DNA from: Xylanimonas allomyrinae
GTDB taxonomy: Bacteria; Actinomycetota; Actinomycetes; Actinomycetales; Cellulomonadaceae
DNA length: 64,000 bases
Reading direction: 5' to 3'
NCBI RefSeq assembly: GCF_004135345.1
Contig: NZ_CP035495.1
Location: 1,736,001 to 1,800,000, forward strand
The notes beneath the pieces were generated by a model, which was not told the origin of the DNA, did no database searches, and saw only the letters and a list, made by a program, of their open reading frames with translations. This document shows positions 18,649 through 63,246 of the stretch, piece by piece; the first letter of the stretch is position 1, and the number at the start of each line of letters is the position of its first letter. A program made the translations under genes and the position numbers.

Positions 18649-18960
18649 GCATGTGGAGCCCGCGGCGCAAATCGGCAGACACCGGGATGCCTCGCATCGT
18701 GAGCACCGGATGAAGCGTGTTCACGGTGCGGCCCAGGATTTGGCTCCGGTATTCGTAGTTCTTCGGACGAACGACACCATGCGCCAGTGACCGGCGCGAT
18801 CTGGTGGCTCTTCACCGCGACCTCCCCCACCCGCCATTTCTATCGCAGGTCGCGCCCGCTTCGGCGCCAATCTCCCGGTCAGCGTCCTGCCCAGAAGGTC
18901 ATCGACGGGCAATTGTGCGCGTTCCGCAGGGGAATCTCATCGACGACGGCCCCGCAACGC
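18649..18960. other. intergenic region without a recognisable gene
   Basis: About 310 bp between the FKBP terminator and the lsr2 promoter. Short open frames exist, but none has a ribosome binding site or recognisable protein character. The DNA is slightly less GC-rich than its neighbours, which fits a regulatory leader for lsr2. Confidence 0.4.
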
Positions 18961-25730: not shown

Positions 25731-25745
25731 GCTGCCGGCCCGGAG
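25731..25745. other. junction where two genes are both cut at their 5' ends
   Basis: Coding similarity for the Ycf46-like ATPase stops at about 25735 on the minus strand. In the opposite direction the frame of the first Tad-locus gene is open and protein-like right from this point (ECRTIDSWTGLC...) with no signal peptide or promoter. Both genes normally need about 50-100 more 5' codons, and there is no room for them. The place is therefore a deletion or recombination joint, or an assembly joint. Confidence 0.65.
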
Positions 25746-25790
25746 TGCCGCACGATCGACTCCTGGACCGGCCTGTGCGTCATCGCAGTC

Positions 25791-26618: not shown

Positions 26619-26648
26619 GGTTGCGAGGAGGAGGGAAGGACGGGCCCC

Positions 26649-27317: not shown

Positions 27318-27324
27318 GCGCACG

Positions 27325-31536: not shown

Positions 31537-31570
31537 CCCGAAGGAACCCCACCCACCAAGGAGAGTCACC

Positions 31571-31762
31571 ATGTTGCGCCTTTACGTCACCCTGCTGGCC
31601 GTCAGGTCCGCGCTGCTCTCCCGCTTCGAGGACGACGACCCCGAGCGGGGGAACTTCACCATCGAGAACGTCCTGTGGGCCGTCGCCGTCATCGCCATCG
31701 TCGGGATCGTCGTGGTGGCGATCAAGAGCTATGTCACCGACCAGGCCGAGCTCATCCAGTAA
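31571..31762 (+). CDS. Flp/TadE-type major pilin-like prepilin
   Basis: The 63-residue protein preceded by AAGGAGAG has a type IVb prepilin signal: a charged leader ending ERG27, then NFTIE with Glu at +5, then a long hydrophobic helix (NVLWAVAVIAIVGIVVVAIK) and a short tail. Cleavage after Gly27 would leave a 36-residue pilin, very close to Flp size. A prepilin peptidase is not encoded in the window. It is the best candidate for the major fibre subunit. Confidence 0.8.
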   Translation: MLRLYVTLLAVRSALLSRFEDDDPERGNFTIENVLWAVAVIAIVGIVVVAIKSYVTDQAELIQ

Positions 31763-32162
31763 CCCCCGCCACGCACGCCACCCCCGGCAGACGTGGCGCT
31801 CGGAGCGAGGGTCGAGCACGATCGAGATGGCGATCGTGTTTCCCGCCGTGCTCGCCCTGATGTTCCTCGGCATCCAGTCCGCACTGTACTTTCACGCCCG
31901 AACCGTCGCCCTGACCGCCGCCACCGAGGGCGTCAAGGCCGCCGCCGCCGAACACGGGCAGGCCGCGGACGGAACGGCCACAGCCCTCGCGTTCGTCGCC
32001 GACGCCGGCGGCGACGACGTCCTGCCCGACGCCGCCGCCACCGCGACCACGTCCGCGACGACCGCCACCGTCCAGGTCACCGGGCACTCGATGTCCGTCA
32101 TCCCCGGCTGGACACCCGACATCACCGCCACCGCCACCGCACCACGAGAGGCGCTGCGATGA
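31731..32162 (+). CDS. TadE-like pseudopilin
   Basis: The 143-residue protein starts at an ATG inside the 3' end of the pilin gene. ERGSSTIEMAIVFPAVLALMF is a TadE prepilin-like start (Gly followed by SSTIE, Glu at +5) leading to one TM; the remainder is a Ser/Thr/Ala-rich extracytoplasmic domain. It is one of three consecutive minor pilin-like genes. The unusually deep overlap with the pilin gene makes the exact start less certain. Confidence 0.78.
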   Translation: MSPTRPSSSSNPRHARHPRQTWRSERGSSTIEMAIVFPAVLALMFLGIQSALYFHARTVALTAATEGVKAAAAEHGQAADGTATALAFVADAGGDDVLPDAAATATTSATTATVQVTGHSMSVIPGWTPDITATATAPREALR

Positions 32163-32641
32163 CACGGCTGCGCGCCCCGCACCACACACCGCCCACCGGC
32201 CGGCGCGACCACGGCAAGCGCGAGGACGGGCAGCGCGGGTCGGCGGCCATCGAGGCGGCCATCGTCGTGCCAGCGTTCGGGCTGCTCGTCGCGCTCGTCG
32301 TGCTCGGCGGGCGTGTCACCCTCGCCCACCAGATCGTCCAGTCCGCCGCCGCCGACGCCGCCCGGTCCGCCTCCCTCGAACGCGCCCCCGCGGCCGCCGC
32401 CGACGCCGCCACCGCTGCGGCCCGGCTGACCCTCGACGGGCAGCACCCCGAGTGCACCGCCGCCACCGTGAACGTCACCCCCACCAGCCTCGACGGCCCA
32501 CCCGGGACGGACGCGACCGTGACCGTCACCGTGACCTGCGACGTCACCCTGAGCGACCTGACGTTCATCCCCGGCGTGCCCGGCACCCGCACCGTCTCAG
32601 CGACCATGACCAGCCCCGTCGACAGGTGGACCGCACGATGA
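32159..32641 (+). CDS. TadE/TadF-like pseudopilin 2
   Basis: This 160-residue protein begins at ATG in an ATGA overlap. QRGSAAIEAAIVVPAFGLLVAL repeats the prepilin-like start (Gly, then SAAIE) and TM. The outer domain contains one Cys pair (HPECTAATV, TVTCDVTL) that could form a disulphide. It is probably a minor pilus component. Confidence 0.78.
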   Translation: MTRLRAPHHTPPTGRRDHGKREDGQRGSAAIEAAIVVPAFGLLVALVVLGGRVTLAHQIVQSAAADAARSASLERAPAAAADAATAAARLTLDGQHPECTAATVNVTPTSLDGPPGTDATVTVTVTCDVTLSDLTFIPGVPGTRTVSATMTSPVDRWTAR

Positions 32642-33114
32642 GCCCACGACACGCCGCCCCCACCCGCCACGACCCACGCGACCGACACGACCGACGTCGC
32701 ACGGGCGGTGAACGAGGGTCGATCTCGGCGTGGGCGGCGCTCAGCGCCGCCGTGATCATCATCTGCGTAGGCCTGGCCGTCGACCTCGGCGGACAGGTCC
32801 ACGCCCTGCAACGCGCGCACGACCTCGCCGCGCAGGCCGCCCGCGCCGGCGGTCAAGCCCTCTCCGAAGCGACCGCGATGCGCGGGGGCGTCCTGGCCGT
32901 CGACGTCGCCCAGGCCAAGGCCGAAGCCCAGCGCTACCTCGACGCGGCGGGAGCCACCGGGACCGTCACCGTCACCGGCGGGACCCGCGTCACCGTCACC
33001 GTCACCGACTCCTACGACACGGTCTTCCTCGGGGCGATCGGCATCAACCGGCTCGACGTCACCTCCGATGCGACCGCACGCACCATCCGCACCGTGGGAG
33101 GCGACGAACGATGA
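32638..33114 (+). CDS. TadE/TadG-like pilus assembly protein
   Basis: The 158-residue protein overlaps the preceding gene by ATGA. ERGSISAWAALSAAVIIICVGLAVDLGG is a Tad-type N-terminal anchor in which the +5 Glu is replaced, so prepilin cleavage is uncertain, as in TadG-like proteins. The rest is an outer domain with helix (HDLAAQAARAGGQAL) and beta strands. It forms a block with the two TadE-like genes. Confidence 0.75.
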   Translation: MSPRHAAPTRHDPRDRHDRRRTGGERGSISAWAALSAAVIIICVGLAVDLGGQVHALQRAHDLAAQAARAGGQALSEATAMRGGVLAVDVAQAKAEAQRYLDAAGATGTVTVTGGTRVTVTVTDSYDTVFLGAIGINRLDVTSDATARTIRTVGGDER

Positions 33115-36100
33115 GACCCGCCACCGCGCGCCTCCACGGAGTCGCCGGCATCCTCGCGATCGTCGCGTTCCTCGTCGCCGTCCCAGCCCTCCTCACCACC
33201 GCCCGCATCACCCCCTGGGACATCGACTGGGCCATGGTCGGGCAGCGCCTGTCCCTGCCCGACAACGGGACCCTGCTCGTCATCCTCATCGGGCTGGCCG
33301 CCTGGGCCGGTTGGGCATACTTCGCCCTGGCGATCCTCACCGAGCTCACCGCCCGCGCCCGCGGAACCCGCACCCCGCACCTGCACGGCTTCGCCCTGCC
33401 CCAGGGCGTCGCACGCAGGATCATCGACGTCGCCGCCCTCGCCTTCACCGCGCTGCCCACCCTGGCCGCGACCGCCCCGCCCGCACACGGCGAGCCCATC
33501 ACCGTCGTCGCACCCCGCGACCCGACGCCGACCGCCCTCACGGCGGGTGCGACCAGCCCGCCCAGCACCGCCACCGCCACCGTGACCGCCGATGCGCCGG
33601 CGACCGTGGAGTACACGGTGCGCCGCGGTGACTCCCTGTGGCGCATCGCCGACCAACGGCTCGGCGACGGACACCGGTGGACCGAGATCCACGACCTCAA
33701 CAGGGCCTCCCTCGGGGACACGCCCGACCTCATCACACCCGGCACCCGCCTGCTGCTGCCCGCCGAGACAACCGCCCCTGCACCGAGCGGCGACTACATC
33801 GTCCAGCCCGGCGACACCCTCTCCCAGATCGCCATGAACGAGCTCGGCGACCCGAACGCCTACCCCCGCATCGCCGACGCCTCCCGGGACATCGTCCAGC
33901 CCGGCGGGCAGCACCTCACCGACCCCGACCACATCGAACCCGGCTGGACCCTCGACCTCACCCCCGACGGCCCGCCCCCGGCTCCCATCGCGTCCACGAC
34001 ACCGGCCCCTACTTCGCCGCGCGAGACGCCTGCGGCGACGCCCGATCCCGCGCCAGACTCCTCGCCCGCCACCCCGATCCCGTCACCCACGACGCCTGCC
34101 CCGTCGACCGCGCCCGGGCAAGCCGAGGCACACCCACCGGCTGCAGCCGCGGCGACGGCGCCGGACCCCGCCGCGGACGAGGCCCCGCGGACGAGGCCGA
34201 CACGGACCGTGGCGCACCTGCCTGGCTGCTCTCGGGCCTGTCCGGCTCCTCGGCGCTGCTCGGCGCCGGGATCTTCCTGACGATCCGCGCCCGACGCCGC
34301 TCCCAGCAACGATTCCGGGACCCCGGCCACATCATCGCCCCGCCCCCCGCCGACCTCACTCCCGTTGCCCACACCGCCCAGTCGGCCGGAGAGCCGCTGG
34401 CCCACCACCTCGTCCAGCTCGACCTCGCACTGCGGGCGATGACCGCCCCGTTCCTCGACCCCGCACACCACCCCCGCGTCCAGACCGTCGCGCTCAGCCG
34501 CGACCGCATCACCCTCCACCTCGACCAACCCGCCGACCTCGTCTCCCCCTGGGCCGGCGAGGGCACCACCTGGAGCACCCCGGTCGACGCCGACTTCCCC
34601 GACGTCGAAACCACCGCGCCCTACCCGATGCTCGTCTCGATCGGCGCCGCCACCGACGGGACCGTCTGGCTCCTCAACCTCGAACAGACCCGCACCCTGC
34701 ACGTCACCGGCACCCCCAGCGAAGTCGAAGCGTTCGCCCGGCACGTCGCCGTCGAGCTCGCCACCGCCCCGTGGGCGGCCCTCGTCGATGTCCACACCAT
34801 CGCCGTCGGCGCGGACCTCGACGACCTCAACGGCACCCGCCTGACCCACCACCGCGACCCGTCCGACGCTCTCCTGACCGCCACGGCCGAACAGGTCGAG
34901 TCGACCGCCCACAGCGGTGACTGGGATCCCGAAGACCGCACGGTCCTGGTCCTCGGCGCCACCGTCGACCCCGCAACGACCAGGCGCCTGGCGACCGGAC
35001 TCGCCGCCCACGAGACGCGCCCTGCCGTCGCGGTCCTCGCCCTGGGAGAGGCCAACAGTGACGACACCCTTGAGGTGCGGATCCTCGACGGCCGGTTGCA
35101 CATCGACGCGCTCGCCATCGACGTCCAGGCCGCGCTCCTGCCCGCGGACGACGCCGCAGGCATCAAACGCCTCCTCACAGTCCTCGACACCCACGAGAAC
35201 ACACCCATGCCCGTCGACGAGATCACCGTCGACGGCATCGGCGCCCTCGTCGACCGCGCCGGCGCCATCCGCCCCACACTCACCGAACCGCGCACCCCAG
35301 CGACGCTCGCGACCGGGCGCACCGTCCTACCCGAGCCGGAACTGGAGTACGCCGACGCCGCCGCCCTGACCGTCGAGGACGTCCACACCCTCGCCCCGGC
35401 CGTCAGCGACCACGTCGCAGAACAGGTCATCGCCGCCGACCCCGACCTGGACCGCGACCTCGCCTGGTGGCACCAAGGCAACGACTGCCCCGTGCCGCGC
35501 GTCGAGCTTCTCGGATCCGTCACGATCCACGGCCACGGCAGACCAGGCGAGGTCATCAACCGCCGCGAGCACTACGCCGAGATCGCCACCTTCATCACCA
35601 TCACCCCCGGCGAGCCCAGCGCCCGCGACATCGCCGAGGCCTTCCACATCTCCGAAGAACGCGCGCGCGTCAGCGTCTCGAACCTGCGTGCCTACCTCGG
35701 CGAACACCACCTACCCAAGTCCGTCCACAGCACAGCAGGGCCGCACGGCTGGACCGGGTACCACCTCGACGGCGTCCTGTTCGACGTTGAACTCTTCACC
35801 CGGCTGCGCGCCCGCGCCCAAGCCCTGGGAACCCTCAACGACGGCGAGGGCATCGCCTACCTCGTCGAAGCCCTCCGACTCGTACGCGGCGAACCCTTCA
35901 CCGACCGCCGCGCCGGATCCTGGGCCTGGCTCAACGACCGACCCGACAGACCCGACATGATCGCCGCCGCAGCCGCCGTCGACGTCGCACTCATCCTCCA
36001 CGGCCACGACCTGCACCCGGCCACCACCAACCTGCCCCGCGCCCGCTGGGCCGCCGAGACCGCACTCAAAGCAGCGCCCTACGACGACAGTGCATGGCTC

Positions 36101-36229
36101 GCCCTCGCCCAGGTCGCCGACGCCGAAGGCAACCACGCCGAAGCCCACGCGATCCGCGTCGCCGTCGACCAACGCACCGACGACGAGCGACCTCCACTCG
36201 ACCCGCCTGCCCGCACCCGGCGGGGATAG
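33111..36229 (+). CDS. membrane LysM protein with BTAD-type C-terminal domain (frameshifted as read)
   Basis: Three N-terminal hydrophobic segments (to about residue 125) are followed by two LysM domains (about 165-220 and 225-285; VEYTVRRGDSLWRIADQ and YIVQPGDTLSQIAMNELG), which bind peptidoglycan. A Pro/Thr linker and a further TM (LLSGLSGSSALLGAGIFLTI) come next. The long cytoplasmic part contains an OmpR/SARP-like winged helix and BTAD repeats near the end (TPGEPSARDIAEAFHISEERARVSVSNLRAYLG ... VDVALILHGHDLHPATTNLPRARW). The frame changes at a run of four C (34183-34186); one more C gives ADEAPADEADTDRG and a single protein of 1039 residues. Such proteins close actinobacterial Tad loci. 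They may couple the cell wall to assembly or to gene control; the role is not known. Confidence 0.75.
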
Positions 36230-36416
36230 CCGCACCGCGCGAGGCCTGGCGACTCTGCCGGATGGGTTTCGATCAACCGCGCCAACGGCGCCGTCGTCAC
36301 GCCCGCTCCGCCGACCCGATGACACTCATCCTTCCGGTGACCACTATCAATCGGTCAGCCCTGACGGCAACGCGAGCAAGACCTCGCGTGTCGCAGTGCC
36401 CGACCTGCAACGGTGG

Positions 36417-37079
36417 CTATGGGTGGGCGAGGCCGGTCTGATAGGCGAGGACGACGAGCTGGGCGCGGTCTCGCAGGCCGAGCTTGAGGATGGCGCGGTT
36501 GACGTGGGTCTTGACGGTCAGCGGTGAGATGTACAGGCGGTCGGCGATCTCCTGGTTGCTCAGCCCCTCGGCAACCAGTGCGGAGACCTGGCGTTCGCGT
36601 TCGGTCAGGTCTCGCAGCCGGTCCTCACCGCCCGCCGCGGGGGCGGTCGGCGCGGCGAGGAAGGTGCCGATCAGCGCGCGTGTCGCGGCGGGTGACAGGA
36701 GCGCCTCGCCGGCGGCGACGAGGCGGACGGCGTCGAGGAGGTCGTCGGGCTCGACGGCCTTGCTCAGGAAGCCGCTGGCTCCGGCGCGCAGCGCCTCGAA
36801 GACGTACTCGTCCTGTTCGAACGTGGTCACGATGAGGACCTTGATGCCGGCCAGGGAGTCGTCCGAGCTGATCTGCTGGGTCGCAGCGAGCCCGTCGACG
36901 TCGGGCATGCGAATGTCCATGAGCACGACGTCGGCGCGCTCGGCGCGCGCGACCCGGACGGCCTGGGCGCCGTCGGGCGCTTCGCCGACGACCTGCATGT
37001 CGGGTGCGGAGTCGATGATGACGCGAAAGCCGAGGCGCACGAGCGCCTGGTCGTCCGCGATGACGACCTTGATGGTCAC
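36417..37079 (-). CDS. NarL/FixJ-type response regulator
   Basis: The 220-residue protein has a receiver domain with the acidic pair in IADDQ, the phospho-acceptor Asp in [12 protein letters not shown] and Lys in FLSKAV. A LuxR-type helix-turn-helix follows ([40 protein letters not shown]). It is translated by overlap with the kinase gene (ATGA). The target genes are unknown; no neighbouring transporter marks the stimulus. Confidence 0.92.
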
Positions 37080-38014
37080 GCCGGTCTCTCCTTGGTGGAC
37101 GTGGGCAGGTGGGCGACGACGGCGAAGCCGCCGTCCGGGGTGGGTCTGGCGTCGAGGGTCCCGCCGGCACCGGTGACGCGTTCGCGCATGCCGACAAGGC
37201 CGAGGCCGCTGCCGGGCACCGCGTCGGCCGTCGACCGCGGGGCGGTCTCGGCCCGGGGGTTGGTGACGGTGATCTCGAGGTCGTCGCGGCAGGTGATGGT
37301 CACCGTGACCGGGGTGCCCGGGGCATGCTTGCGGGCGTTGGTCAGCGCCTCCTGCACGACGCGGAACGCGGCCAGGTCGACGTCGGGGAGCAGCGTGGTC
37401 GGGACGGGCCCGAGGTGCAGGTGCACGGACGTCCCGTCCTCGCGGACCGCCTCGACGAGGGCCGCGACGTCGTCGAGCCCGCGCACCGGTGCCGTCACCG
37501 CGTCGACGGCGGTGCCGTCGCGGCGCAGCACGGCCAGCACGGAGTGAAGCTCGCCGAGGACGGTCTTGGCCGAGGTGCGGATGTTGCGCACGGCGTCGGC
37601 GACGACCTGCTCGTCACGGCCGAGCATGTGCTCGGCCATCCCCGCCTGGACGCTGATCGCCGAAACGTGGTGGGCCATGACGTCGTGCAGCTCGCGCGCG
37701 ATCCGCAGCCGTTCCTCGGCAACCCGGCGCCGCGCGGCCTCCTCACGCCCCTGCTCGGCGCGCACGGCCCGGTCCGTGAGCGCCGCGACCGTGTCGCGGC
37801 GGCTACGGATCGCGATGGCGATCGCCGTCAGGGTCCACAACCACAGCACCACGTCCTCACGGCGCAGCAGGCCGTCGCTCGCGAACGCGGTCGCGAGGGC
37901 GAGCCCCTCGAAGATGACCGTGGCCGCCCCGGCGGCGATGATCGCCCTGCGCGGCGGCCGGGCGAGCGCGTAACCGAAGACGGCGACGCATGAGCCACGG
38001 CCCGCGGACGCCAC
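37076..38014 (-). CDS. NarL-family sensor histidine kinase, N-terminus short
   Basis: The 312 residues from a GTG start include one or two hydrophobic segments ([21 protein letters not shown] and [13 protein letters not shown]). The HisKA_3 dimerisation helix with the phospho-acceptor His is [18 protein letters not shown], and the HATPase_c domain contains the N box ([13 protein letters not shown]) and [13 protein letters not shown]. Relatives have four to six TM segments; here the sequence upstream of 38014 has stops and no TM-like frame, so about 60-100 N-terminal residues appear to be lost or decayed. Signalling from the membrane may be impaired. Confidence 0.85.
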
Positions 38015-39627: not shown

Positions 39628-40005
39628 TCTGATGACCGCGCATTCTTCGCCGGAGGGCTACCGCCGGCGGTCGGCTTGATCGCGGCGCCGGACGCTCATT
39701 GCCCTTCCCTGCGGTCGTTGGCCGGCGGCCCCTGTCGTGGTGTCTCCCGCGCCGTCGCGCTTGTCTCTGCGGTCACTGGAGCCACCGCGAGGTGAGCCTC
39801 GGCCGTGGGCGGGCTGCATTTCTCCTGGGACGGTGTTGTCGCTTCCCGACCTGGCGCGCCCGCGGCTGTCAACGAAATCGCTGAGAAATCGATCACGATC
39901 GGGCCTGAAACACATCGTTCCTACAGTCGGCCCGCCGGCACGCACCACAGTCCGCAACCCTCGCCACGCTCGGCGTGCCACGGCGCGCACGAAGGAGCCG
40001 CATAC
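39628..40005. other. divergent intergenic region upstream of the secreted hydrolase
   Basis: About 380 bp without a supportable gene. It must hold the promoter of the secreted hydrolase; GAAGGAG at 39991-39997 is its ribosome binding site. A repeated AAATCG pattern (GAAATCGCTGAGAAATCGATC, near 39878) is the only notable motif and could be an operator. Confidence 0.4.
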
Positions 40006-42912
40006 ATGTCACACCACGTCTCGATTCGGTGGAGGGCGGCATCAGCGGCCACCTTTGCCGCCCTGGTCGCCGGCCTGCTTGCGGCGGTCGCGCCGTCCGC
40101 GGCAGCCGACGACAAAGCTGTCGGTCCCGGGTGGAACGCCATCGCAACTGCCGGTGGCGCGGAGGTCACGTACACCCTCCCCGACACGCTGCCGATCATC
40201 GACGACGCACCGACACTCGTCGTCAACGGCACGCCTGTCCCCGCCACGGAGTCGGCGGACGGCACGACCCTCTCCGCGACCGTGCCCCTCGCTGTCAGCG
40301 ACGTCGACTCGGTCTCGTTCGCGTGGACCTCGGGCGAGACCGTCATCGACAAGACCTCGCCGGAAGCGGTCGCCGAGCGCAGCGCCAAGGCGGCCCCTGC
40401 CGCCTCGACGGCCGCCGCGCCGAGCACCGCGGTGCTCGAGGCCGCCGCTGCCGACGGCGCCGAGGTCGGCCCGTACTCCTACACCGTCGACGACTACGAC
40501 TTCGGCGACCAGGCGATCGACCTCGCAGCGATCGGCGGCATCCGCGGAGAGCTCACTGGCCGCATCTACCTCCCGACGGCCGGTGGCGCCCGCCCCGTCG
40601 TCATCCTCCTTCACGGCCGCCACACCTCGTGCTCCACCCTCGTCAGCGGCACGCAGAACCCGAACCGCTGGCCGTGCGTCGGCGGGCAGACCGAGGTCCC
40701 GAGCTACAAGGGCTACGACGGCACCGGCGAGACGCTCGCGAGCCAGGGCTACGCGGTCGTGTCGATCTCGGCGAACGCGATCAACGCGAACGACAACCAG
40801 CTCGCCGCCGACAACGGCGCCGAGGCCCGCGGCCAGCTCGTGCTCGACACGCTGTCCTTCCTGCAGAAGGCCACCGAGGGCAAGGTCGTGTCATTCCATG
40901 ACGACGCTCTCGACCGCGACATGACGCTCGATGACGCGCTCGATGCCCCGCAGGCCGACCTCGGCTCCACGGACCCGAACACGCTCGACGCGTCCGGCCT
41001 CATCGGCCGTCTCGACTTCTCGAGCATCGGCCTCATGGGTCACTCGCGCGGCGGTGAGGGCGTCGTCTCGGCCGTCGAGCTCAACCAGGCGCTCGACAAG
41101 CCGTTCTCCATCAAGTCCGTCCTGCCGCTCGCGCCCGTCGACTTCGGTCGCATGACCGTCGCGAACACGCCGATGCTCCTGATCCTCCCCTACTGCGACG
41201 GCGATGTCTCCAACCAGCAGGGCCAGCATTTCGTCGACGACTCGCGGTACGCGTTCGACCAGTCCGTCCTGATCTCGACGGTGTGGGTCATGGGCGCCAA
41301 CCACAACTTCTTCAACTCCGTGTGGACGCCGGGCAAGTACGGCTACTCGACGTCGGACGACTGGGGCGCCACCTCGACCGACTCCTACTGCGGCCCGCGC
41401 TCTTCCACCAACCAGCGCCTAACGGCGGACGAGCAGTACGACGTCGGTACGTCCCTGATGAGCGCCTGGTTCCGTCTCACCCTGGGCGGCGACGACGACC
41501 TCATGTCCGCCTTCGACGGTTCGACGCCGCAGACGCCGATCCCCTCCGTCCCGACGGCCGATGTTCGCACCGTGGGCTTCGCCCCGACCGCGTCCCGCGT
41601 CGACCTCGAACCGTTCACGACTGCGAGTGCCACGACGACGGCCTCGGGTTCGGCGTCGTACGTGACGTGCGCGAGCGCGGGTGGCCGCACCCTGCCGCAG
41701 GACCTGCCGGCCTGTGCGACGGCGATCAGCGGCGTGCGCAGCACGAGCGGTATGCCGCACTGGACGCCGGCGTCGTTCGCACCGAACGTCCCCGCCTCGC
41801 CCATGGGTGAGTTCACGTGGACCTCGACGTCAGACGCGGGCCTCACCGTCACCCTGCCAGGGCAGCAGAAGAACGCCAGCAAGTACGACTATCTGACATT
41901 CAAGACGGCCCCGGAGGAGAACGTCGTCTCCGGCACCGACCTGGTCGTCACGGTGAAGGACACGTCCGGGAAGTCGTGGAGCGCGCCGGTCTCCGAGCTC
42001 AACCCGCTCGCCGTCCAGCGCATGCCGAAGAGCACCTCGACGACGCTCAACAAGATCGTGCTCCAGCAGGTCTCGATCCCCATCACCTCCCTGACCGGCG
42101 TCGACACGAAGAAGCTGGCCTCGGTTACCTTCTCCGGTGGGGTCGGTGCCGACGGCACCGAGTCGGGCGGCGTCTACCTCTCCGACCTCGCGTACTCGAG
42201 CTACTCGGTCGGCGACACCCTCGCCACGGGCACTCCGTGGACGATGAAGAAGGAGCCGACCATCAACGTCGACGCCACCTTCCTCGAGGAGGGCTCGGGC
42301 CCGTCGACCAAGCAGGTCGCGGTGTACCTCTCCAAGCCGTCGAACCACGAGACGAGCGCGTGGTTCTCCCTCGTCGGCTCGACCGCGTCGAGCGCCAAGG
42401 CGGGCCTCGCCCTCCAGAAGGTCACCTTCGCCAAGGGCGAGACCTGCAAGGCGATCGACATCCCGACGAACGGAGACACCACGGCGAGCAGCTCGACGCT
42501 GACGACCTACAAGATGTCGGTGTCGCAGAACGAGGGCGTCATCGCGGGCAAGAGCGCCGTGACGTTCCTGACCGTCCGCGAGGACGACGGTATGACAGGT
42601 TCGGCCACGCCTGCTCCGGCGGTCGGCGTCCAGGGTGACGCGTGCGCCGAGGCACTCGCCAAGTCGCAGACGTTCCCGCTGTCGGTGACCACGTCGAAGC
42701 CGGCGCTCGGATCAACCGTCACGGTGAAGGCGACGGGCTACCGCGCCGGCGAGGCCGTCACCTTCACCGTCGACGACGTGGCTTCCACCGTCGCCGCCGA
42801 CGGGTCGGGAGCGGCAACCTCTCCCGTCGTCGTCTCGACCTCAAGGGTCGCCGTGACGGCGGTCGGCGCCGGCTCCAGCCGCACCTCGACGGCGACCATC
42901 ACGGCGAAGTAG
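40006..42912 (+). CDS. large secreted alpha/beta hydrolase with C-terminal beta domains
   Basis: The ATG follows GAAGGAG. The 968-residue protein has a signal peptide (RWRAASAATFAALVAGLLAAV, cleavage near AADDK). An Ig-like N-region (35-125) leads to an alpha/beta hydrolase domain (about 150-500) with VVILLHGRHTSC, the nucleophile elbow GHSRGGEG and WVMGANHNFFNS as the catalytic His region. It continues with a jelly-roll-like domain (about 540-730), a Calx-beta-like segment (PTINVDATFLEEGSGPSTKQVAVYLS) and a final Ig-like domain (about 890-968). This resembles secreted esterase/lipase or polymer-active hydrolases of saprophytic actinomycetes; the substrate is not evident. Monocistronic, with a clear terminator. 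Confidence 0.82.
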   Translation: MSHHVSIRWRAASAATFAALVAGLLAAVAPSAAADDKAVGPGWNAIATAGGAEVTYTLPDTLPIIDDAPTLVVNGTPVPATESADGTTLSATVPLAVSDVDSVSFAWTSGETVIDKTSPEAVAERSAKAAPAASTAAAPSTAVLEAAAADGAEVGPYSYTVDDYDFGDQAIDLAAIGGIRGELTGRIYLPTAGGARPVVILLHGRHTSCSTLVSGTQNPNRWPCVGGQTEVPSYKGYDGTGETLASQGYAVVSISANAINANDNQLAADNGAEARGQLVLDTLSFLQKATEGKVVSFHDDALDRDMTLDDALDAPQADLGSTDPNTLDASGLIGRLDFSSIGLMGHSRGGEGVVSAVELNQALDKPFSIKSVLPLAPVDFGRMTVANTPMLLILPYCDGDVSNQQGQHFVDDSRYAFDQSVLISTVWVMGANHNFFNSVWTPGKYGYSTSDDWGATSTDSYCGPRSSTNQRLTADEQYDVGTSLMSAWFRLTLGGDDDLMSAFDGSTPQTPIPSVPTADVRTVGFAPTASRVDLEPFTTASATTTASGSASYVTCASAGGRTLPQDLPACATAISGVRSTSGMPHWTPASFAPNVPASPMGEFTWTSTSDAGLTVTLPGQQKNASKYDYLTFKTAPEENVVSGTDLVVTVKDTSGKSWSAPVSELNPLAVQRMPKSTSTTLNKIVLQQVSIPITSLTGVDTKKLASVTFSGGVGADGTESGGVYLSDLAYSSYSVGDTLATGTPWTMKKEPTINVDATFLEEGSGPSTKQVAVYLSKPSNHETSAWFSLVGSTASSAKAGLALQKVTFAKGETCKAIDIPTNGDTTASSSTLTTYKMSVSQNEGVIAGKSAVTFLTVREDDGMTGSATPAPAVGVQGDACAEALAKSQTFPLSVTTSKPALGSTVTVKATGYRAGEAVTFTVDDVASTVAADGSGAATSPVVVSTSRVAVTAVGAGSSRTSTATITAK

Positions 42913-43121: not shown

Positions 43122-43212
43122 TCAGAGCTCCTCGCGGCGGAGCACGATGGCGGCTGTGGCGAGGAGTGCTGCGGCGAGGGCGAGCCCGGTGCCGAGGGGC
43201 CACCACGGGCCT
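43122..43212 (-). pseudogene. 3' fragment of an ABC-2 type permease gene
   Basis: On the minus strand, up to the TGA at 43122-43124, the sequence encodes PLGTGLALAAALLATAAIVLRREEL, the last TM and basic tail typical of ABC-2 permeases. The matching 5' fragment lies at 47353-47642 on the other side of the IS3 element. About half of a normal permease (roughly 140 residues) is missing between the fragments, so the gene is dead. Confidence 0.7.
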
Positions 43213-43244
43213 TGACCCCGTTTCTCGGACACGGGGTTTGCAGG

Positions 43245-43556
43245 CTATGCAGCCTTGGTGATCGTAGCGGTGATGGTTGTCGTGCTCGGGGTCAGGGCGC
43301 GTTCGTAGGCGTCGGGTGAGACGTTGCCGATCGCGGTGTGACGGCGGCGTGTGTTGTACCTGTTGACCCACCGGAACGTCTCTCGGCGTGCGGTGTGGAC
43401 ATCGGCGAACGCGGGGGCGCCGGCGAGGGTCTCGCGCTTGTAGGACGCGTTGAACGCCTCGGCCAGCGCGTTGTCCGCAGACGACCCGATGGCGCCCATC
43501 GACTGGATGACGCCGTAGCGGGTGCACAGGTCGGCGTAGGCCTTGGCTGTGTAGAC
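43245..43556 (-). pseudogene. IS3 orfB transposase, 3' half
   Basis: From codon GTC at 43556 the minus strand reads VYTAKAYADLCTRYGVIQSMGAIGSSADNALAEAFNASYKRETL ending in PDAYERAL: the C-terminal half of the rve integrase core, including the catalytic Glu in NALAEAF. The 5' half is at 45009-45629 beyond the IS30. Joined through one GTC the halves give an in-frame 309-residue protein. Confidence 0.9.
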
Positions 43557-45008
43557 GCTGGGTTCAACCGATGGTCGCAACACTCCAGGTCAGGAGGAGT
43601 GTCGTGGGTCGACCGTCGGATTGGATGCGTGAGGTCACGGGGCGCGCGCCGCTGAAGTCGCCAGGGGCGCCGAGTCGTCCCCGCGCGGTGGAGCGCCGGT
43701 TCTGGGACGAGATCGCCACGGGGAAGCTGCCGCGTGAGGCCGCGGAGGCGGTAGGCGTGGCGCAGGCCGTGGGGCAGCGGTGGTTCCGTCACGCTGGCGG
43801 GATGACACCGTACTCCTGGCCTGCGCCGTCGGGCCGGTATCTTTCGTTCGCGGAGCGTGAGGAGATCGCGATCGGCAACGCGCTCGGCAAGGGCGTTCGC
43901 GAGATCGCTGGCGCGCTCGGGCGGAGCCCGTCGACGATCTCGCGCGAGCTGCGCCGCAACGCCGCCACTCGCGGCGGCAAGCTCGACTACCGGGCGTCGG
44001 TGGCGCAGTGGAAGGCGGAGATGTACGCCCGCCGACCCAAGCTTGCAAAGCTCGCCACGAACGCGCGGTTGCGTGAGTACGTCGAGGACCGCCTGGCGGG
44101 CCAGATCCGGATGCCGAACGGCGCGGTCGTCGCCGGCCCCGTCGAGCGGGACTGGAAGGGCCTGAACAAGCCCCACCGCCAGGACCGGCGCTGGGTCAAG
44201 GCATGGAGCCCCGAGCAGATCTCCAACCGGCTGAAGATCGACTTCCCCGATGATGAGGCCATGAGGATCAGCCACGAGGCGATCTACCAGGCCCTGTTCA
44301 TCGAGGCCCGCGGTGCGCTCAAGCGTGAGCTCATCCTCTGCCTGCGCACCGGGCGGGCCCTGCGAATGCCTCGGGCTCGTTCGAAGCGTGTGCCCTGGGC
44401 GCACGTGACCGAGGATGTGCTGATCAGCGAGCGGCCCGCCGAGGCCGAGGACCGCGCGATCCCTGGCCACCACGAGGGCGACCTGATCATCGGCATCAAC
44501 CGGTCAGCGATCGGCACCGTCGTCGAACGCACAACGGGCTACACCACCCTGGTCCACCTGCCCCGCGAGGCGGGCTGGCGTGAGCAGCCGCTCGTGAAGA
44601 ACGGTCCCGCGCTCTCCGGCTATGGCGCCATCTCGATGAACAAGGCCCTCGCCCGAGCGCTGGCGTCGATGCCTGACGATCTCAAGCGCTCCCTGACCTG
44701 GGACCGCGGCAAAGAGATGTCGGCCCACGCACAGTTCACCATCGACACCGGTCTCAAGGTCTACTTCGCCGATCCGCGCAGCCCGTGGCAGCGCGGCACG
44801 AACGAGAACACCAACGGGCTGCTCCGGCAGTACTTCCCCAAGGGCACCGACCTCTCGAGGTGGGATGCCGCAGACCTGGCCGCGGTTGCTCACGCCCTCA
44901 ACACACGGCCGCGGAAGAGGCTCGGCTGGCGAACCCCGGCCGAAGCGTGGGACGAGCACCTACGATCTACCGAACAGCAACGTGTTGCGACGACCAGTTG
45001 ATTCCGCC
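43557..45008. mobile_element. IS30-family insertion sequence
   Basis: The 1452-bp element is bounded by 27-bp imperfect inverted repeats (20 of 27 matches, inner ends GTCGCAACAC) and flanked by a 3-bp target duplication GAC at 43554-43556 and 45009-45011. Removing the element and one GAC restores the IS3 orfB reading HGSVYTAKAY. One transposase gene fills it. Confidence 0.9.
43604..45001 (+). CDS. IS30-family transposase
   Basis: The GTG at 43604 is chosen because AGGAGG lies six bases upstream; the open frame extends further into the terminal repeat. The 465-residue protein has helix-turn-helix domains (LPREAAEAVGVAQAVGQRWFRHAGG and YLSFAEREEIAIGNALGKGVREIAGALGRSPSTISRELRRNA). The DDE core has Asp in GHHEGDLIIG, Asp in LTWDRGKEM and Glu in NENTNGLLRQYFPKG. 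It appears intact and could be the mobile copy. Confidence 0.93.
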   Translation: MGRPSDWMREVTGRAPLKSPGAPSRPRAVERRFWDEIATGKLPREAAEAVGVAQAVGQRWFRHAGGMTPYSWPAPSGRYLSFAEREEIAIGNALGKGVREIAGALGRSPSTISRELRRNAATRGGKLDYRASVAQWKAEMYARRPKLAKLATNARLREYVEDRLAGQIRMPNGAVVAGPVERDWKGLNKPHRQDRRWVKAWSPEQISNRLKIDFPDDEAMRISHEAIYQALFIEARGALKRELILCLRTGRALRMPRARSKRVPWAHVTEDVLISERPAEAEDRAIPGHHEGDLIIGINRSAIGTVVERTTGYTTLVHLPREAGWREQPLVKNGPALSGYGAISMNKALARALASMPDDLKRSLTWDRGKEMSAHAQFTIDTGLKVYFADPRSPWQRGTNENTNGLLRQYFPKGTDLSRWDAADLAAVAHALNTRPRKRLGWRTPAEAWDEHLRSTEQQRVATTS

Positions 45009-45629
45009 GACCGATCCGTGATCGCTGTGGAAGATCGCCCCGGCCAGGGAGCCGCGCACGCCGGCGGCCATCGTCAGGGCGTCGGCGACGAGGTCGGTGC
45101 GCATGTGGTCGGCCAGCGCCCACCCGGCGAGCTTGCGTGAGTGCAGGTCGATCACCGTGGCCAGGTACCAGTTCGAGCCGTCCGCGATGGGGACGTACGT
45201 GATATCGCCGACGTAGCGGCAGTTGACCGCCTCGGCGGTGAAGTCCCGCCCGAGCAGGTCGGGGAACTTGCGACCCGACTGATCCGGGACCGTGGTCCGC
45301 ACGCGGCGGCGCAGCCGGATCCCGGCCAGCCCGTGGTCGCGCATGACCCGGGCGACGCGCTTGTGGTTCACCCGCTCACGGTCGGGCGCCCCGTCGTTGA
45401 GCTCGCCGGTGACCCTGGGGGCACCGTAGGCACGGTCCCCACCCCGGGCGGGGTCCTGAGCTGCCCGGATGCGGGCGGCCAGCGCCTCGTCCGCGGCCGC
45501 CCTCGCGTGACGTCTCGGGGCGGCCTTGACCCAGTCGTAGTACGACGAGCGGGCCACCTGAACGACCTGGCACAACCGCTTCACCTCGAAGGCGTGCTGG
45601 TGGTCGGCGACGAACTGGAAGCGGTTCAC
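45009..45629 (-). pseudogene. IS3 orfB transposase, 5' half
   Basis: It starts at a GTG overlapping the orfA stop. The sequence FQFVADHQHAFEVKRLCQVVQVARSSYYDW is the HTH_21 region; CRYVGDITYVP and AIFHSDHGSV contain the first two catalytic Asp residues. It runs into IS30 sequence after SDHGSV. Confidence 0.9.
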
Positions 45630-45665
45630 CAGCGCGTCTCCCCGGCGACGCTTCTATGTCTCGTG

Positions 45666-46711
45666 TCAAGCCGACAGGGCCCACATCTGCCGATAGAGCT
45701 GGCGGGCGATGTACCGCTTGAGGCAGCGGCGGATCTCTCGGGGGTGCGTCCTTCTGCGGTGCGCCGGGCGACGTACGCGCGGGTCTCCTCGTCGTGCACC
45801 ATGCGGACCTTCGCGACGATGTCGAGTGCCATGTTGAGATGCCGGTCGCCGCTGCGAGACAGTCGGTGGCGTGTCGTCTTCCCCGAGGACGCCGGCAGCG
45901 GGGCGGTGCCGGCGAGGGCGGCGAAGGCGGCCTCGGAGCGGACGCGTCCTCGGTGCGACCAGACGGTCAGGAGCGTCGCGGCGACGACCGGGCCGACTCC
46001 CGGGATCTCGAGCAGGCCGGGCATGAGCTCGCCGACATGCGTGGCCAGCGCAGCCCGGTTGTCCTTGAGCGACTCGGTTGCTGACTCGACGGACTTGGCG
46101 AGGCGGCGTGCCTCGCTGCGGATCGTCGAGGTCGCGAGATCGTCACTGGCGCGGGTGCGCCATGCGGCGATCGTGCGGACCTGGGCGTCGCTCAGCGCCT
46201 TGCGTGCGTCCACGTTGAGACCGTGCGTCCGCACCAGGGCGTTGAGGGCGTTGCGGTCAGCGGTGCGCCGCGCGTCCATCGCCCGGCGGGCCACGAGCAG
46301 GACACGCAGCGCCGACCGCCGACCCTCGGCCCGCGGGGTGATCAGCTCGGCCTCGTCGCTGGCCAGCGCTGTGCGCGCCGCAGCACGAGCGTCGATCGGG
46401 TCCGACTTGCCGTGCACGGCCCGCTGCGCACGCTTGGGCGGCTTGACCTCGCACACCCGCTCCTCGCGGCGCGCGAGCTCGCGCGCCAGCCCAGCCCCGT
46501 AGGAGCCGGTGCACTCGATCGCGACGAGCCGGCGGCCCGGGGCGCGACGGGCGATCCAGTCCGCAGCCCGCGCCAGCCCGGCCGGGTGCGTCGGGAACTG
46601 CGCCTGGTCGACGACGGCGCCGGTCGCGGCTGCCAGGACCGCGTAGTCGTGGGTGGCGGCGTGGGTGTCCACGCCGATGACGTACTCGAACAGCTCGGCA
46701 ACTTGGGCCAC
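45666..46711 (-). CDS. IS110-family transposase (frameshifted near its end as read)
   Basis: DEDD recombinase: YVIGVDTHAATHDYAVL with the first acidic residue, VAIECTGSYGAGLARELA, and SDPIDARAAARTAL. A coiled helical middle leads to the transposase_20 domain (LLEIPGVGPVVAATLLTVW ... TAPLPASSGKTTRHRLSRSGDRHLN) with its catalytic Ser region. After RTAEGRTP the read frame drifts; adding one G to the G5 run at 45740-45744 (plus strand) gives PREIRRCLKRYIARQLYRQM, the usual IS110 C-terminus, and a 348-residue protein ending at 45666. The element may be functional if this is a read error. Confidence 0.85.
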
Positions 46712-46982
46712 GAAGACTCCTGTGTGTTCTCCAGCATGGGCAGCGCCGAACCTGGAGGAGGTCTCGCGGCAGTTCTCTAACGAGTCACACGCGCAAGGCG
46801 CGGACGAGCTTCTATCAAGCCAGCAGGACCGGACAGGCCCGGCCCCGACCTCGCCCGGCGGACAAGTCGCAGGAAGAGCAGACGACCACAGGAAGTGACG
46901 CGCCGCCAGAAATACTTCGGGTCACGCCGAGCGAGGCCGGGCCAAGTCTGTCAGCCGACCCCAGGCCAGCTGGGATCATTAG
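46712..46982 (-). ncRNA. candidate bridge-RNA region of the IS110 element
   Basis: In IS110-type elements the long non-coding end upstream of the recombinase encodes a structured bridge RNA that pairs with donor and target DNA. Here about 270 bp lie between the inferred left end and the transposase start, with no other gene. The target half-sites around the joint read GATTTCT and TCGCC. I could not fold the RNA or find the guide loops by eye, so only the position is supported. Confidence 0.4.
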
Positions 46983-47292
46983 AGAAATCCTTCGCCGCCG
47001 ACCGCAGGATGTCCCGCTCGGTCACGAGCTTCTTGACCTCGGCGCGTTGTGCCGCCAGCTCGGCCTCGAGCCGCGCGATCCGCGCCGTGTCCGACTCGGG
47101 TGCCGCTCCCGCATCCGGCCCGGTGGCCGACGGCGTCTTGGCCCCGGTCCCGAACGTCTTGACCCAGACCCGCAGCGTCTCGCGTGAGACCCCCAGATCC
47201 GCCCCGATCCCCTGGATCGTCGCGCCCGGCGTCGACTCGTACAAGTCCACCGCCCGCCGCTTGAACTCCTCGTCGTAGAACTTCCCAGCCAT
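46983..47292 (-). pseudogene. IS3 orfA, 5' part (tail at 45626-45648)
   Basis: It reads MAGKFYDEEFKRRAVDLYES, a helix-turn-helix (IQGIGADLGVSRETLRVWVKTF) and the leucine-zipper-like segment IARLEAELAAQRAEVKKLVTERDILRSAAKDF. The remaining codons (FAGETRW-stop) are at 45626-45648 on the far side of the IS110. The joined length is 110 residues. Confidence 0.88.
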
Positions 47293-47352
47293 CCTCAGAT
47301 TCTCGCTTCCCCCGCCCCACGGCGGATTCAGCGTGTCCGAGAAACGGGGTCA

Positions 47353-47642
47353 GGGCCCATGGACCCGAGGACACCGGCGATCATGACGGCCAGGTCCGAA
47401 CCGCCCAGCACGGTCGCCAGAGGATCGGACGCCTGACCGGGAGCTGCCGTGATCAGGATCCCGGCCAGCGCCGCGACCCCCACCATGACCAGCGCCAGCA
47501 GCCCGCAGGTCAACCACGTCCCGCGCAGCGAGCGCGCCTTGATCCACTCCGAGCGCACCACACGCGCGAACGTCTGCCGGTAGGCGGTGCCGGGCTCGCT
47601 GGTGCCGACCGGCGTCCTGTCCATCACTGCCACGGTCATCAC
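47353..47642 (-). pseudogene. 5' fragment of an ABC-2 type permease gene
   Basis: MTVAVMDRTPVGTSEPG leads to FARVVRSEWIKARSLRGTWLTCGLLALVMVGVAALAGILI, then DPLATVLGGSDLAVMIAGVLGSMG where the IS3 element begins. The WIKxRSLRGTW amphipathic start and first TM are typical of ABC-2 permeases paired with antibiotic- or peptide-export ATPases. Its ATG overlaps the stop of the ATPase gene (ATGA), showing they were one operon. Confidence 0.8.
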
Positions 47643-48592
47643 GCCGCCTCCTTCGTCTCGATGCTGTCCTGCACGGCGCTGACCTGCGCGGACCCGGAGC
47701 CGTACTCCACGCTCCCGCGCGTCAACGCCCAGTACGCCGACTCCAGGCTGGCGCCCACCGGCGCCAGGTGATGCAGCCGCACCCCGGCCTGGGCGGCGAT
47801 GTCACCGATCAGCCCCGCGTCCAGGCCACGGACCTGCACCAGCGCGTCGCCGCCCACCGCGACCGACCCGCCCGCCCGCGCCAGCAACGGCACGAGCACC
47901 GCCGCGTCAGGCGAACCCACCGACACCGCGCCCCCGGTCGAACGGGCGATGAACTCCTCGATCGGGCTGTCCGCCAAGATCCGGCCCTGCCCGATCACCA
48001 GCAGATGGTCCGCCACCAGCTCCATCTCGCTCATCAGGTGCGAGGACAGCAAGATCGTGCAGCCCTCCCCAGCGAGCTGCGTGAGCAGGTTCCGGATCCA
48101 CTGGATCCCGTCGACGTCCAGACCGTTGACCGGCTCGTCCAGGATCAGCACCTGCGGCTCGGCCAGCAGCGCCGCAGCGATGCCCAGCCGCTGGCTCATG
48201 CCCAAAGAGAACAGCCCCACCCGGCGGTGCGCCACCTCCGACAGGCCGACGACCTCCAGCACCGCCTCCACCCGCCGCGGCCCCGCACCCACCGTCGCAC
48301 CCAGCGCGAGCAGATGGTTGCGCGCCGACCGCGCGCCGTCGGCAGCCTTCGCGTCCAACAGCGCGCCCACCTCGGACAACGGCGCACTCGTCCGCTCGAA
48401 CGGGCGGCCGTTGACCAACGCCCGCCCCGACGTCGGACGATCCAGCCCGAGAATCGCGCGCATCGTCGTCGACTTGCCCGCACCATTCGGCCCCAGGAAC
48501 CCAGTCACCCTCCCCGGCTGGACGACAGCACTCACATGGTCCACGGCAACCTTCGAGCCGTACACCTTGGTCAACTCCTGCAACTCGATCAT
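47639..48592 (-). CDS. ABC transporter ATP-binding protein (drug/peptide export type)
   Basis: The ATG at 48592 follows GAAGGATTCC and gives 317 residues. Walker A is FLGPNGAGKST, the signature is LFSLGMSQRLG, Walker B is QVLILDEPVNGLD and the switch His is LLSSHLMSEME. The C-terminal domain (about 225-317) resembles that of bacitracin- or lantibiotic-resistance ATPases. The cognate permease gene downstream is destroyed by an IS3 element, so the ATPase is probably an orphan. Confidence 0.9.
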   Translation of the reverse strand: MIELQELTKVYGSKVAVDHVSAVVQPGRVTGFLGPNGAGKSTTMRAILGLDRPTSGRALVNGRPFERTSAPLSEVGALLDAKAADGARSARNHLLALGATVGAGPRRVEAVLEVVGLSEVAHRRVGLFSLGMSQRLGIAAALLAEPQVLILDEPVNGLDVDGIQWIRNLLTQLAGEGCTILLSSHLMSEMELVADHLLVIGQGRILADSPIEEFIARSTGGAVSVGSPDAAVLVPLLARAGGSVAVGGDALVQVRGLDAGLIGDIAAQAGVRLHHLAPVGASLESAYWALTRGSVEYGSGSAQVSAVQDSIETKEAA

Positions 48593-48819
48593 GAGGAATC
48601 CTTCGTTCGGTTCCCCCAAGGCTCCCCGGGTCGCCCCGGCTTGTCGTCGTCCCGACGAAGCGTCTTCAGTACTCCATCCAGAGCACATCCGACTCACCCG
48701 ACCGACGATCCACGGCGACGGGCCGCCCAGACGTGCGCGCGTTCGCTCAACTGCCGGAGTAGCCCGACCCGGGCTCGACGTCTGCCATCAGCGCCAGCCG
48801 GTCGAGCCCCGCGCTCTTC

Positions 48820-49047
48820 ATGCTGCGACTGGCACGACCGAACAGGTCAAATCGACCGCCCCAGGCGGCGACGCGCATCCCGAAGACCGCACGGTCTCGG
48901 TCCTCGGCGCCGCCACCGACCCCGCAACGACCAGGCGCCGGGCTACCGGCATCGCCGCCCACGAGACGCGCCCCGCCGTCGCGGTCCTCGCCCTCGGCGG
49001 GACCCCCAGCACCGGCACCATCGACGCCTGGATCGACGCGTCCATGT
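48820..49047 (+). pseudogene. fragment of a LysM/BTAD gene paralogue
   Basis: The plus strand encodes TEQVKSTAPGGDAHPEDRTVSVLGAATDPATTRRRATGIAAHETRPAVAVLALGG. The LysM/BTAD gene of the Tad locus (34880-35060) encodes the closely similar TEQVESTAHSGDWDPEDRTVLVLGATVDPATTRRLATGLAAHETRPAVAVLALGE. Neither the beginning nor the end of the gene is present. This is a remnant of a second, diverged copy, so another Tad-type locus or element once stood here. Confidence 0.8.
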
Positions 49048-49296
49048 GATCGACGGCGGAACTCCAGCCACACCAGGCAGTGGCGCGGCTGCGCGACCCG
49101 CCACGACACGCTCGCCATCACCGACCGCGCCGCGACCGTCCTGCGGGCATGCATCCGCTTCTGAAGCGACTGGGAGACATGGCGGGCGCCGGGCTAGAGG
49201 CCACCGTGCGCTGGGCGTGGCTGCCTGCGCCGGCGGAAAGGAGCCGCGACAAGTGACGTGCCGAAGTGGCCAGTCTCTGGTCGCCTGCCTGGCGGT

Positions 49297-49956
49297 TCAG
49301 CCTCGCTGGAGGGCGCTGGTCGTGTCCGCGCGACGTGCACGCCGCGACCGGACGGCCACGCTCGCAGCGATCGGCAGGACCGACACGAGGACGACGATGA
49401 CGGCGAGCAGATCGATGTGGTTGCGCACGAGGGGAAGCCCGCCGAGCAGCGTTCCCGCGAGAGTCAGCCCGCCGGCCCAAAGGATGCCGCCGAGGGCATT
49501 CCACCGCAGGAACCGCTGGTGGTGCAGCGCCCCGACGCCGGCGGTGAGGGGGACGTACGTGCGCACGACGGGCACGAACCGGCCAAGTACGAGCGCGGCC
49601 GGTCCGTAGCGGGTGAAGAAGCGCTCCGCATCCTCGAGCCGGGACGTGCGCAGGACCCGCGCGCCCGGGCGGAACAGGCGGCGCCCGAGGCGGCGCCCGA
49701 TGGTGTAGCCGACCTGGTCGCCAGCGATCGCGGCCGCCGTCGCGACGGCGGCGATCGTCCAGGGCGAGAAACCGAGCCCGGGCGCGAGGATCGCGGCGGC
49801 GACCAGTAGAGAGTCCCCGGGAAGGAACGGGAAGAGCACGCCGGACTCGACGAACACGGTCAGAGCGACGCCGAGCAGCGCCCACGATCCGAACGAGTGG
49901 AGCAGGGCGGCGGGGTCGAGTGGTCCTGCGGCTGGCAGAAGCGTGGCAGCGAGCAT
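49297..49956 (-). CDS. DedA-family membrane protein
   Basis: The 219-residue polytopic protein has the DedA signature: FVESGVLFPFLPGDSLL, GYTIGRRLGRRL, FFTRYGPAALVLGRFVPVVRTYVPLTAG and RFLRWNALGGILWAG. DedA proteins include undecaprenyl-phosphate flippases (UptA/PopT type) that recycle the cell-wall lipid carrier. The 18-bp box 45 bp upstream is shared with the two-component system and uppP, which supports a lipid-carrier role. This is inference. Confidence 0.88.
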   Translation of the reverse strand: MLAATLLPAAGPLDPAALLHSFGSWALLGVALTVFVESGVLFPFLPGDSLLVAAAILAPGLGFSPWTIAAVATAAAIAGDQVGYTIGRRLGRRLFRPGARVLRTSRLEDAERFFTRYGPAALVLGRFVPVVRTYVPLTAGVGALHHQRFLRWNALGGILWAGGLTLAGTLLGGLPLVRNHIDLLAVIVVLVSVLPIAASVAVRSRRARRADTTSALQRG

Positions 49957-50000
49957 CGGATGGGGTTCCCTTCGTCACCGCGATGGTCTCGGACGGCGTC

Positions 50001-62299: not shown

Positions 62300-62340
62300 C
62301 CGTGCGTTCGCGGTAACGGTGGCGGCCGAGCGTGGTGGGC

Positions 62341-63246
62341 ATGTCAACACCGGCCGACCTCACCTCGTCGCGGCTCTCACCGCTGCGTCGTGCCGCCGCC
62401 GCGCCCTCGCTGCCGGCGGCCGCGGCCTCGCTGGCGCGGGCCGGGGTGCCTGTGTTTCCGTGCGCGCCGACGGGTAAGCAGCCGCTGACGCAGCGCGGGT
62501 TCCTGGACGCGACCACCGACGTCGACCAGGTCGCGGCGTGGTGGCGGCGTCGTCCGGACGCGAACATCGGCGTGCCGACCGGTGAGCGATCGGGGTTCGA
62601 CGTCGTCGATGTGGACCTGCACCCGGGTTCGTCGGGGTTCCCGGCGTTCGAGCGGGCCCGCCGCGGCGGCCTGGTGGCGGGGTGGTCGGTGGTGGTGCGC
62701 ACGCCCTCGGGCGGGATCCACGCCTACTTCCCGCACTCTGCGGGGGTTGAACAGAGGTCGTGGCAGTCGCCGCGCACGCACATCGACTTCCGCGGGGACG
62801 GCGGGTATGTGGTCGCGCCGCCGTCGTGGTGCCTGACGCCGGTCGGGCCGCGTCGGTACGAGCTGGTCGCGGTGTCTGGCCGCGACCCGCATCCGGTGGA
62901 CGCCGGCGCGTTGCGGGCGTTCCTCGATCCCCCGCGCCCGACGCCGTCACCGTCGGGTGCGGGCGTACTGCCTGGGGTGGGTGCCTCGCCGGATCGGTTG
63001 GCGGCCTGGGTCGCGAGCCGCCCGGAGGGCGGGCGCAACGCCGGGCTGTTCTGGGCGTCCTGCCGGATGGTCGAGGGCGGGTTCGACCTGCCCTCGACGG
63101 TGGGCGCTCTTGCCGAGGCCGCGCAGCACGCCGGCCTTCCGCGGCGGGAGGTCGAGGCGACGATCCGCTCGGCCTTCCGCCGCACTGCTGCCCTGCCCGC
63201 TCCGGGCGGTCTGCGCCCGGCCCCGACCCCGGAGGTGTCGACGTGA
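62341..63246 (+). CDS. bifunctional DNA primase/polymerase-type protein (prim-pol)
   Basis: The 301-residue protein belongs to the archaeo-eukaryotic-primase-like prim-pol family of plasmids and integrative elements. Visible motifs are FDVVDVDLH (catalytic Asp pair), RTPSGGIHAYF (basic and His) and HIDFRGDGGYVVAPPS (second acidic position and the Pro-Pro-Ser loop). A C-terminal helical part (RNAGLFWASCRMVEGGFDL) follows. It lacks the helicase part found in larger relatives. An upstream GTG at 62332 is possible. It starts a GTGA-coupled operon of replication genes. Confidence 0.85.
   Translation: MSTPADLTSSRLSPLRRAAAAPSLPAAAASLARAGVPVFPCAPTGKQPLTQRGFLDATTDVDQVAAWWRRRPDANIGVPTGERSGFDVVDVDLHPGSSGFPAFERARRGGLVAGWSVVVRTPSGGIHAYFPHSAGVEQRSWQSPRTHIDFRGDGGYVVAPPSWCLTPVGPRRYELVAVSGRDPHPVDAGALRAFLDPPRPTPSPSGAGVLPGVGASPDRLAAWVASRPEGGRNAGLFWASCRMVEGGFDLPSTVGALAEAAQHAGLPRREVEATIRSAFRRTAALPAPGGLRPAPTPEVST

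Follow-up and report, generated by a model that had tools for sequence, protein, structure and literature searches.

A partial copy of a Tad-locus LysM gene beside an IS5-family remnant in Xylanimonas allomyrinae

Organization of the Region

The window, that is, the whole analyzed stretch of 64,000 nt of contig NZ_CP035495.1 (positions 1,736,001 to 1,800,000), carried the following features relevant to the fragment at 49 kb:

33111–36229, + strand: parent LysM gene of a Tad-like locus (LysM, PF01476), ORFs in two frames, start counted by hand from the translation
34876–35046, + strand: segment of the parent gene matching the relic, from the same alignment
36416–37989, − strand: presumed response regulator/histidine kinase genes, 98.6% copy of one part of a locus at 2.907 Mb
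43203–47362, − strand: presumed IS3-type element bounded by 31-nt inverted ends and split by IS110-type (45629–46711) and presumed IS30-type (43571–44998) transposases
47359–48704, − strand: ABC ATPase gene (ABC_tran) and the start of a truncated permease, 98.1% copy of another part of the 2.907-Mb locus
48827–48997, + strand: relic, duplicating part of the C-terminal half of the LysM gene in the Tad locus (148/171, ungapped), the sole strong second match in own-genome searches
48998–49067, + strand: junction between the relic and the IS5 remnant, with neither the gene nor the IS5 alignment clearly above shuffles; some IS matches extend back to 49046–49062
49068–49183, + strand: remnant of the 3′ end of an IS5-family transposase, 85–86% identical to two places in genome G010, one of which matches DDE_Tnp_1
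49297–49956, − strand: dedA (VTT domain), with neighbours unlike those in genomes G003, G006, and G002
62332–63243, + strand: Prim-Pol gene, located 26 kb downstream of the LysM gene

The regulator and kinase genes at 36416–37989 were named from their sequence, and the IS3 and IS30 names within 43203–47362 are those that we take to follow from domain make-up. The relic lies between an ABC gene on the left and dedA on the right, as the first-pass annotation of this DNA had stated.

The Relic and Its Parent Gene

A BLAST search with positions 48000–50000 as the query against the whole window aligned 48827–48997 (+) with 34876–35046 over 171 nt without gaps, of which 148 were identical (86.5%; E = 2e-54 and 6e-55), and the E-value of the same pair was 1.7e-53 in the own-genome search and 1.9e-53 in the comparison with 24.5–36.4 kb. 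All other off-diagonal matches of the query in the window had E-values of 7e-4 or worse. In the own genome, scoring the best 40 of 241 candidates returned three places, namely, the relic itself, the parent segment (87%), and 41 nt at 2.142 Mb (E = 3.3e-5). The earlier view that a second copy of part of the Tad-locus gene left this fragment as a relic is upheld (148/171 nt, E = 2e-54), and the peptides quoted for it, PEDRTV(L/S)VLGA and DPATTRR, are present; the match is real, but its extent by DNA is 171 nt or approximately 57 residues, not the 228 nt and 70 residues previously given.

Read in the frame of the parent gene, the relic aligned over 56 codons, 18 of which differed and 12 of which changed the residue, so that 44 of 56 residues were identical (79% identity to the LysM gene protein), with no stop codons. 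The relic thus shows significant homology to a portion of a longer gene, corresponding to 5.5% of this one gene, and the remainder of the gene is absent from the site according to the flank alignments (ambiguous for 50–70 nt on the right) and the search of the window plus 34 kb beyond it, as in a partial-gene pseudogene. Being a short truncated part-copy adjoining IS fragments, it resembles the bacterial partial-gene pseudogenes (gene remnants) located beside insertion sequences, from which no feature distinguishes it; the parent copy here is itself frame-shifted in the assembly.

The LysM half of the parent gene (~33.11–34.28 kb) and its C-terminal half (from ~34.2 kb) are in different frames. 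Consequently, the product formerly described as a 1039-residue protein is not one open frame but two, with a switch near 34.17–34.2 kb; a 12-nt unit occurs at this switch (34173–34198), at 34173 and again at 34187 (14 nt apart). The G003 relative of the gene is a single frame of 1066 aa. On the phylogenetic tree, the branch of the parent gene was longer than that of its sister (0.64 vs. 0.37; fork support 90/93). The parent gene could itself be undergoing decay, or an assembly error could lie at the frame switch, and the shifted frame suggests that the Tad part of the element may be in decay. The LysM half of the former LysM/BTAD label is supported by Pfam (PF01476), whereas BTAD is not, since none of six family members had a Pfam match in the C-terminal half at E 0.001.

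Flanks of the Relic

The left flank of the relic gave no alignment with the LysM gene beyond chance, as 192 of 500 shuffles reached its score. To the right, the alignment score of 48998–49067 was reached by 18 of 500 shuffles against the LysM gene and by 121 of 500 against the IS5-type element; positions 48998–49046 are in frame with the LysM gene and resemble the related locus L029 (DNA score reached by 18/500 shuffles). IS5 homology, to the 3′ end of a transposase of this family, begins 50–70 nt right of the relic. Compared with a complete IS5-family element, only ~116–137 nt remain here, and the relic itself is not IS sequence. One of the two G010 places (the L010 copy) lies in an element matching DDE_Tnp_1, and among ten plasmid records matching the IS5 part, five annotate an IS5 family transposase there and five have no feature. 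Neither an IS end nor a target duplication was found to coincide with the edges of the relic, the right edge being blurred by the ambiguous 50–70 nt. IS5 pieces also occur 14–16 kb downstream of the LysM gene in G010; this positional parallel was set aside as coincidence or shared IS-richness, and over the 58.5 kb compared, G010 and the window had in common only the Tad locus, Prim-Pol, and IS pieces.

On the left side, 36416–37989 and 47359–48704 match a single own-genome locus at 2.907 Mb with order and orientation kept but without an intervening 866 nt of that locus. The first part begins 187 nt past the stop of the LysM gene, and the second ends 123 nt before the relic. Other genes and nested IS elements lie between the two parts, including the IS3-type element, whose 31-nt inverted ends are at 43203–43233 and 47332–47362. 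The source locus contains a 122-nt piece 75% similar to the IS3 transposase of the window, ~320 nt beyond the kinase/regulator part. The coding signal was strong in an open frame of 1035 residues in this interval (39805–42909), for which Pfam gave no match at E 0.001.

After the relic come dedA, a second kinase/regulator pair, and two genes that we take, from domain make-up or the look of the sequence, to be uppP and a fetB-like gene. In G003 and G006, dedA adjoins uppP instead, and in G002, no window ORF other than dedA was matched in the 19 kb around dedA; the neighbours of dedA thus vary in the genus. None of the Tad-locus ORFs of the window matched the dedA regions of these three genus genomes (9–10 kb to the left and 8–9 kb to the right in G003 and G002; 1 kb to the left and 10 kb to the right in G006).

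Divergence and Selection

The differences between the relic and its parent were distributed over the codon positions as 9/6/8, with dN/dS = 0.73 (bootstrap 0.30–2.02). For the same segment, dN/dS in four pairs of LysM genes was 0.38, 0.46, 0.65, and 0.63, the last being the window gene with G003, and for the whole C-terminal half it was 0.21–0.24 in three pairs and 0.67 for the window gene with G003, a far-apart pair. A reading of decay or age from codon positions was therefore dropped, given the range of 0.38–0.65 among homologues and the bootstrap interval of the relic. The relic–parent pair has neither a stop nor an indel, and 68% of simulations with 23 random substitutions were likewise stop-free. 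Nucleotide identity, which the first-pass annotation had proposed for dating the duplication, was measured (86.5%); no date is claimed from it in view of the bootstrap dN/dS interval of 0.30–2.02, and a scrap of 171 nt is insufficient either to date or to prove the loss of a whole locus. The relic diverges by 13.5% and the ABC/kinase copy by 1.4–1.9%, so there was no obvious joint arrival, and the greater divergence suggests that the relic may be the older of the two.

Search for Other Sources and Further Copies

Among 26 related loci, the relic peptide scored 85 bits against the window's own gene and 39 bits against the next locus (G003, 0.18 Mb). When up to three best candidates were scored in each of 221 genomes of the same family, 30 genomes had a match at E 1e-8, with 42 places in total, of which 39 lay at 49046 or later (the IS5 part), one (66 nt, G013) fell in the relic core, and the rest were the query and the parent segment; no allele nearer than the 34.9-kb copy was found among these candidates. 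The G013 match overlaps the frame of an ABC ATPase (named by eye) and was rejected as chance similarity of GC-rich coding DNA, and the 41-nt match at 2.142 Mb and weak matches in G001, G006, and G010 (E = 3e-5 to 7e-4) were treated in the same way. For 11 genomes of the genus, where at most 40 candidates each were scored, the matches to the relic beyond the own genome were all short, with E-values no better than 3e-5. The best place in each of the ten matching plasmid records was the IS part, with no nearer match to the relic, and phages gave no relic match. Exact-pattern scans of species genomes and viral contigs, in which the own or very near genomes are possibly absent, returned 0 matches, and a protein scan of species genomes, which detects close relatives only, confirmed no relative. 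These searches agree with the earlier view that the fragment arose by duplication rather than transfer, the 34.9-kb copy being the nearest of the 26 related loci (85 vs. 39 bits).

A whole-genome search with 28500–36300 at E 1e-8 (best 40 of 1002 candidates scored) recovered the segment itself, a diverged locus at 2.20–2.21 Mb, and the 171 nt of the relic. This second Tad/LysM locus is 66–68% identical in DNA, and the C-terminal half of its LysM gene is 37% identical in protein. When 24500–36400 was compared with all other parts of the window and with 34 kb beyond its end, only the 171 nt of the relic and three matches of 25–54 nt (E = 5e-4) were obtained, two of them left of the Tad locus and one in the downstream DNA (L067). 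Apart from the relic, Tad/LysM genes or remnants that would mark a second locus were not found at the 49-kb site.

The Wider Element

The LysM and Prim-Pol genes are 26 kb apart in the window. In three of five related loci examined, the spacing is 1.3–4 kb, namely, 1.3 kb at 2.2 Mb of the own genome, 4.0 kb at the G003 locus (0.18 Mb), and 3.0 kb in G010. For the other two, no Prim-Pol match was found within 8.7 kb after the LysM gene in the G003 locus at 3.8 Mb, and the contig of the G002 locus stops 0.9 kb past it. Collinearity with 25–36 kb plus 62–69 kb of the window comprises, in G003 (0.18 Mb) and at the own 2.2-Mb locus, the Tad genes, the LysM gene, Prim-Pol, and some of the genes after it; in G010, it comprises the Tad genes, the LysM gene, and Prim-Pol. 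Downstream of the window are an M23 peptidase, a TraG/TraD-type coupling protein, and a phage-type integrase (at 1829.6 kb); no tRNA genes were found in the window or the next 19.9 kb. The collinearity and these three downstream genes make it most likely that the Tad locus is part of an integrated conjugation-like element. The interval 36229–62332 is rich in IS and duplicated DNA and holds chromosomal-type genes such as dedA and uppP; the relic would accordingly sit in extra DNA in the middle of the element.

The genus genomes contain from zero to two Tad/LysM loci at differing places (11 genomes, five with none, four of these less than 80% complete). Mobility of the wider element is likely on these grounds more than on that of the relic; the movement of the whole locus proposed earlier is thus retained as probable from the varying place and number of loci, the relic adding little to it.

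Origin of the Relic

The relic is best read as an ordinary duplication scar among jumping-gene fragments. We consider it probable (roughly 0.7) that it represents a dead partial duplication formed by IS-associated or illegitimate recombination inside the integrated Tad/conjugation-like element. On this view, such recombination would have joined IS5-family DNA to a copied short piece of the LysM gene or a near allele, and this piece would now lie in a debris zone within the ~26 kb between the LysM gene and Prim-Pol, the element being otherwise collinear; the recombination route, the order of events, and the absence of a relic product are what we infer. This reading is supported by the confinement of the match to an internal part of one gene with no other locus parts nearby, by the IS5 3′ end within 50–70 nt, the IS3/IS110/IS30 stack, and the split ABC/kinase duplicate, as well as by the 26-kb gap with collinearity resuming after Prim-Pol and by dedA neighbours unlike those of G003 and G006. 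Against it, no IS end or target duplication was seen at the relic edges, so that the IS route is drawn from the neighbourhood; the close LysM–Prim-Pol spacing is not universal (G003, 3.8 Mb); and the relic, free of stops and indels, shows no decay in its dN/dS.

According to the first-pass annotation, the 49-kb site once held a second Tad/LysM locus or a mobile block that included it, since lost save for the relic. Such a whole lost locus is possible, with the relic as its support, and we regard it as unlikely: genus genomes do carry 0–2 such loci at differing places, and the own genome has a second one at 2.2 Mb, but the 171 nt are the only clear remnant of 24.5–36.4 kb in the remaining window or the 34 kb beyond it, no further remnant was found elsewhere at E 1e-8 among the best 40 of 1002 candidates, the right neighbour is an IS5 remnant, and the 2.2-Mb locus, just 37% identical in protein over the C-terminal half, is not the source.

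It is also doubtful that two related elements recombined, the left Tad part coming from one and the relic with the Prim-Pol part from the other, in which case the relic would be what is left of the second LysM gene. The position of the relic between the Tad part and Prim-Pol, its orientation, which is that of the LysM gene, and the coexistence of related elements in one genome fit this scheme. However, dedA, the kinase/regulator pair, uppP, and other genes separate the relic from Prim-Pol, and since the other loci are 35–51% identical to the window gene vs. 79% for the relic, a near allele seen nowhere else would be required. The version in which two closely related Tad/Prim-Pol integrative elements captured the chromosomal-type genes (dedA to the fetB-like gene) between their halves, leaving the relic as a recombination scar, appears similarly improbable.

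Introduction of the relic from another species carrying a near allele is the least credible origin. In its favour, a divergence of 13.5% is large for a recent copy, and since three close pairs of LysM genes between genus species are 74%, 83%, and 88% identical in protein, the 79% of the relic also fits an allele from another, unsampled relative, but a nearer match is absent from the 221 family genomes (best three or fewer candidates each), plasmids, phages, and exact scans.

Apart from the partial duplication favoured here, the analysis delimited, as a by-product, a 26-kb interval rich in IS and duplicates between the Tad and Prim-Pol parts of the integrated conjugation-like element. In the DNA downstream of the window (L067), an open frame of ~1200 residues with five GntR-type domain stretches (15128–18724) adjoins a TraG/TraD-type gene, and a single open frame at 9922–10944 joins part of a DDE transposase to a GNAT acetyltransferase.
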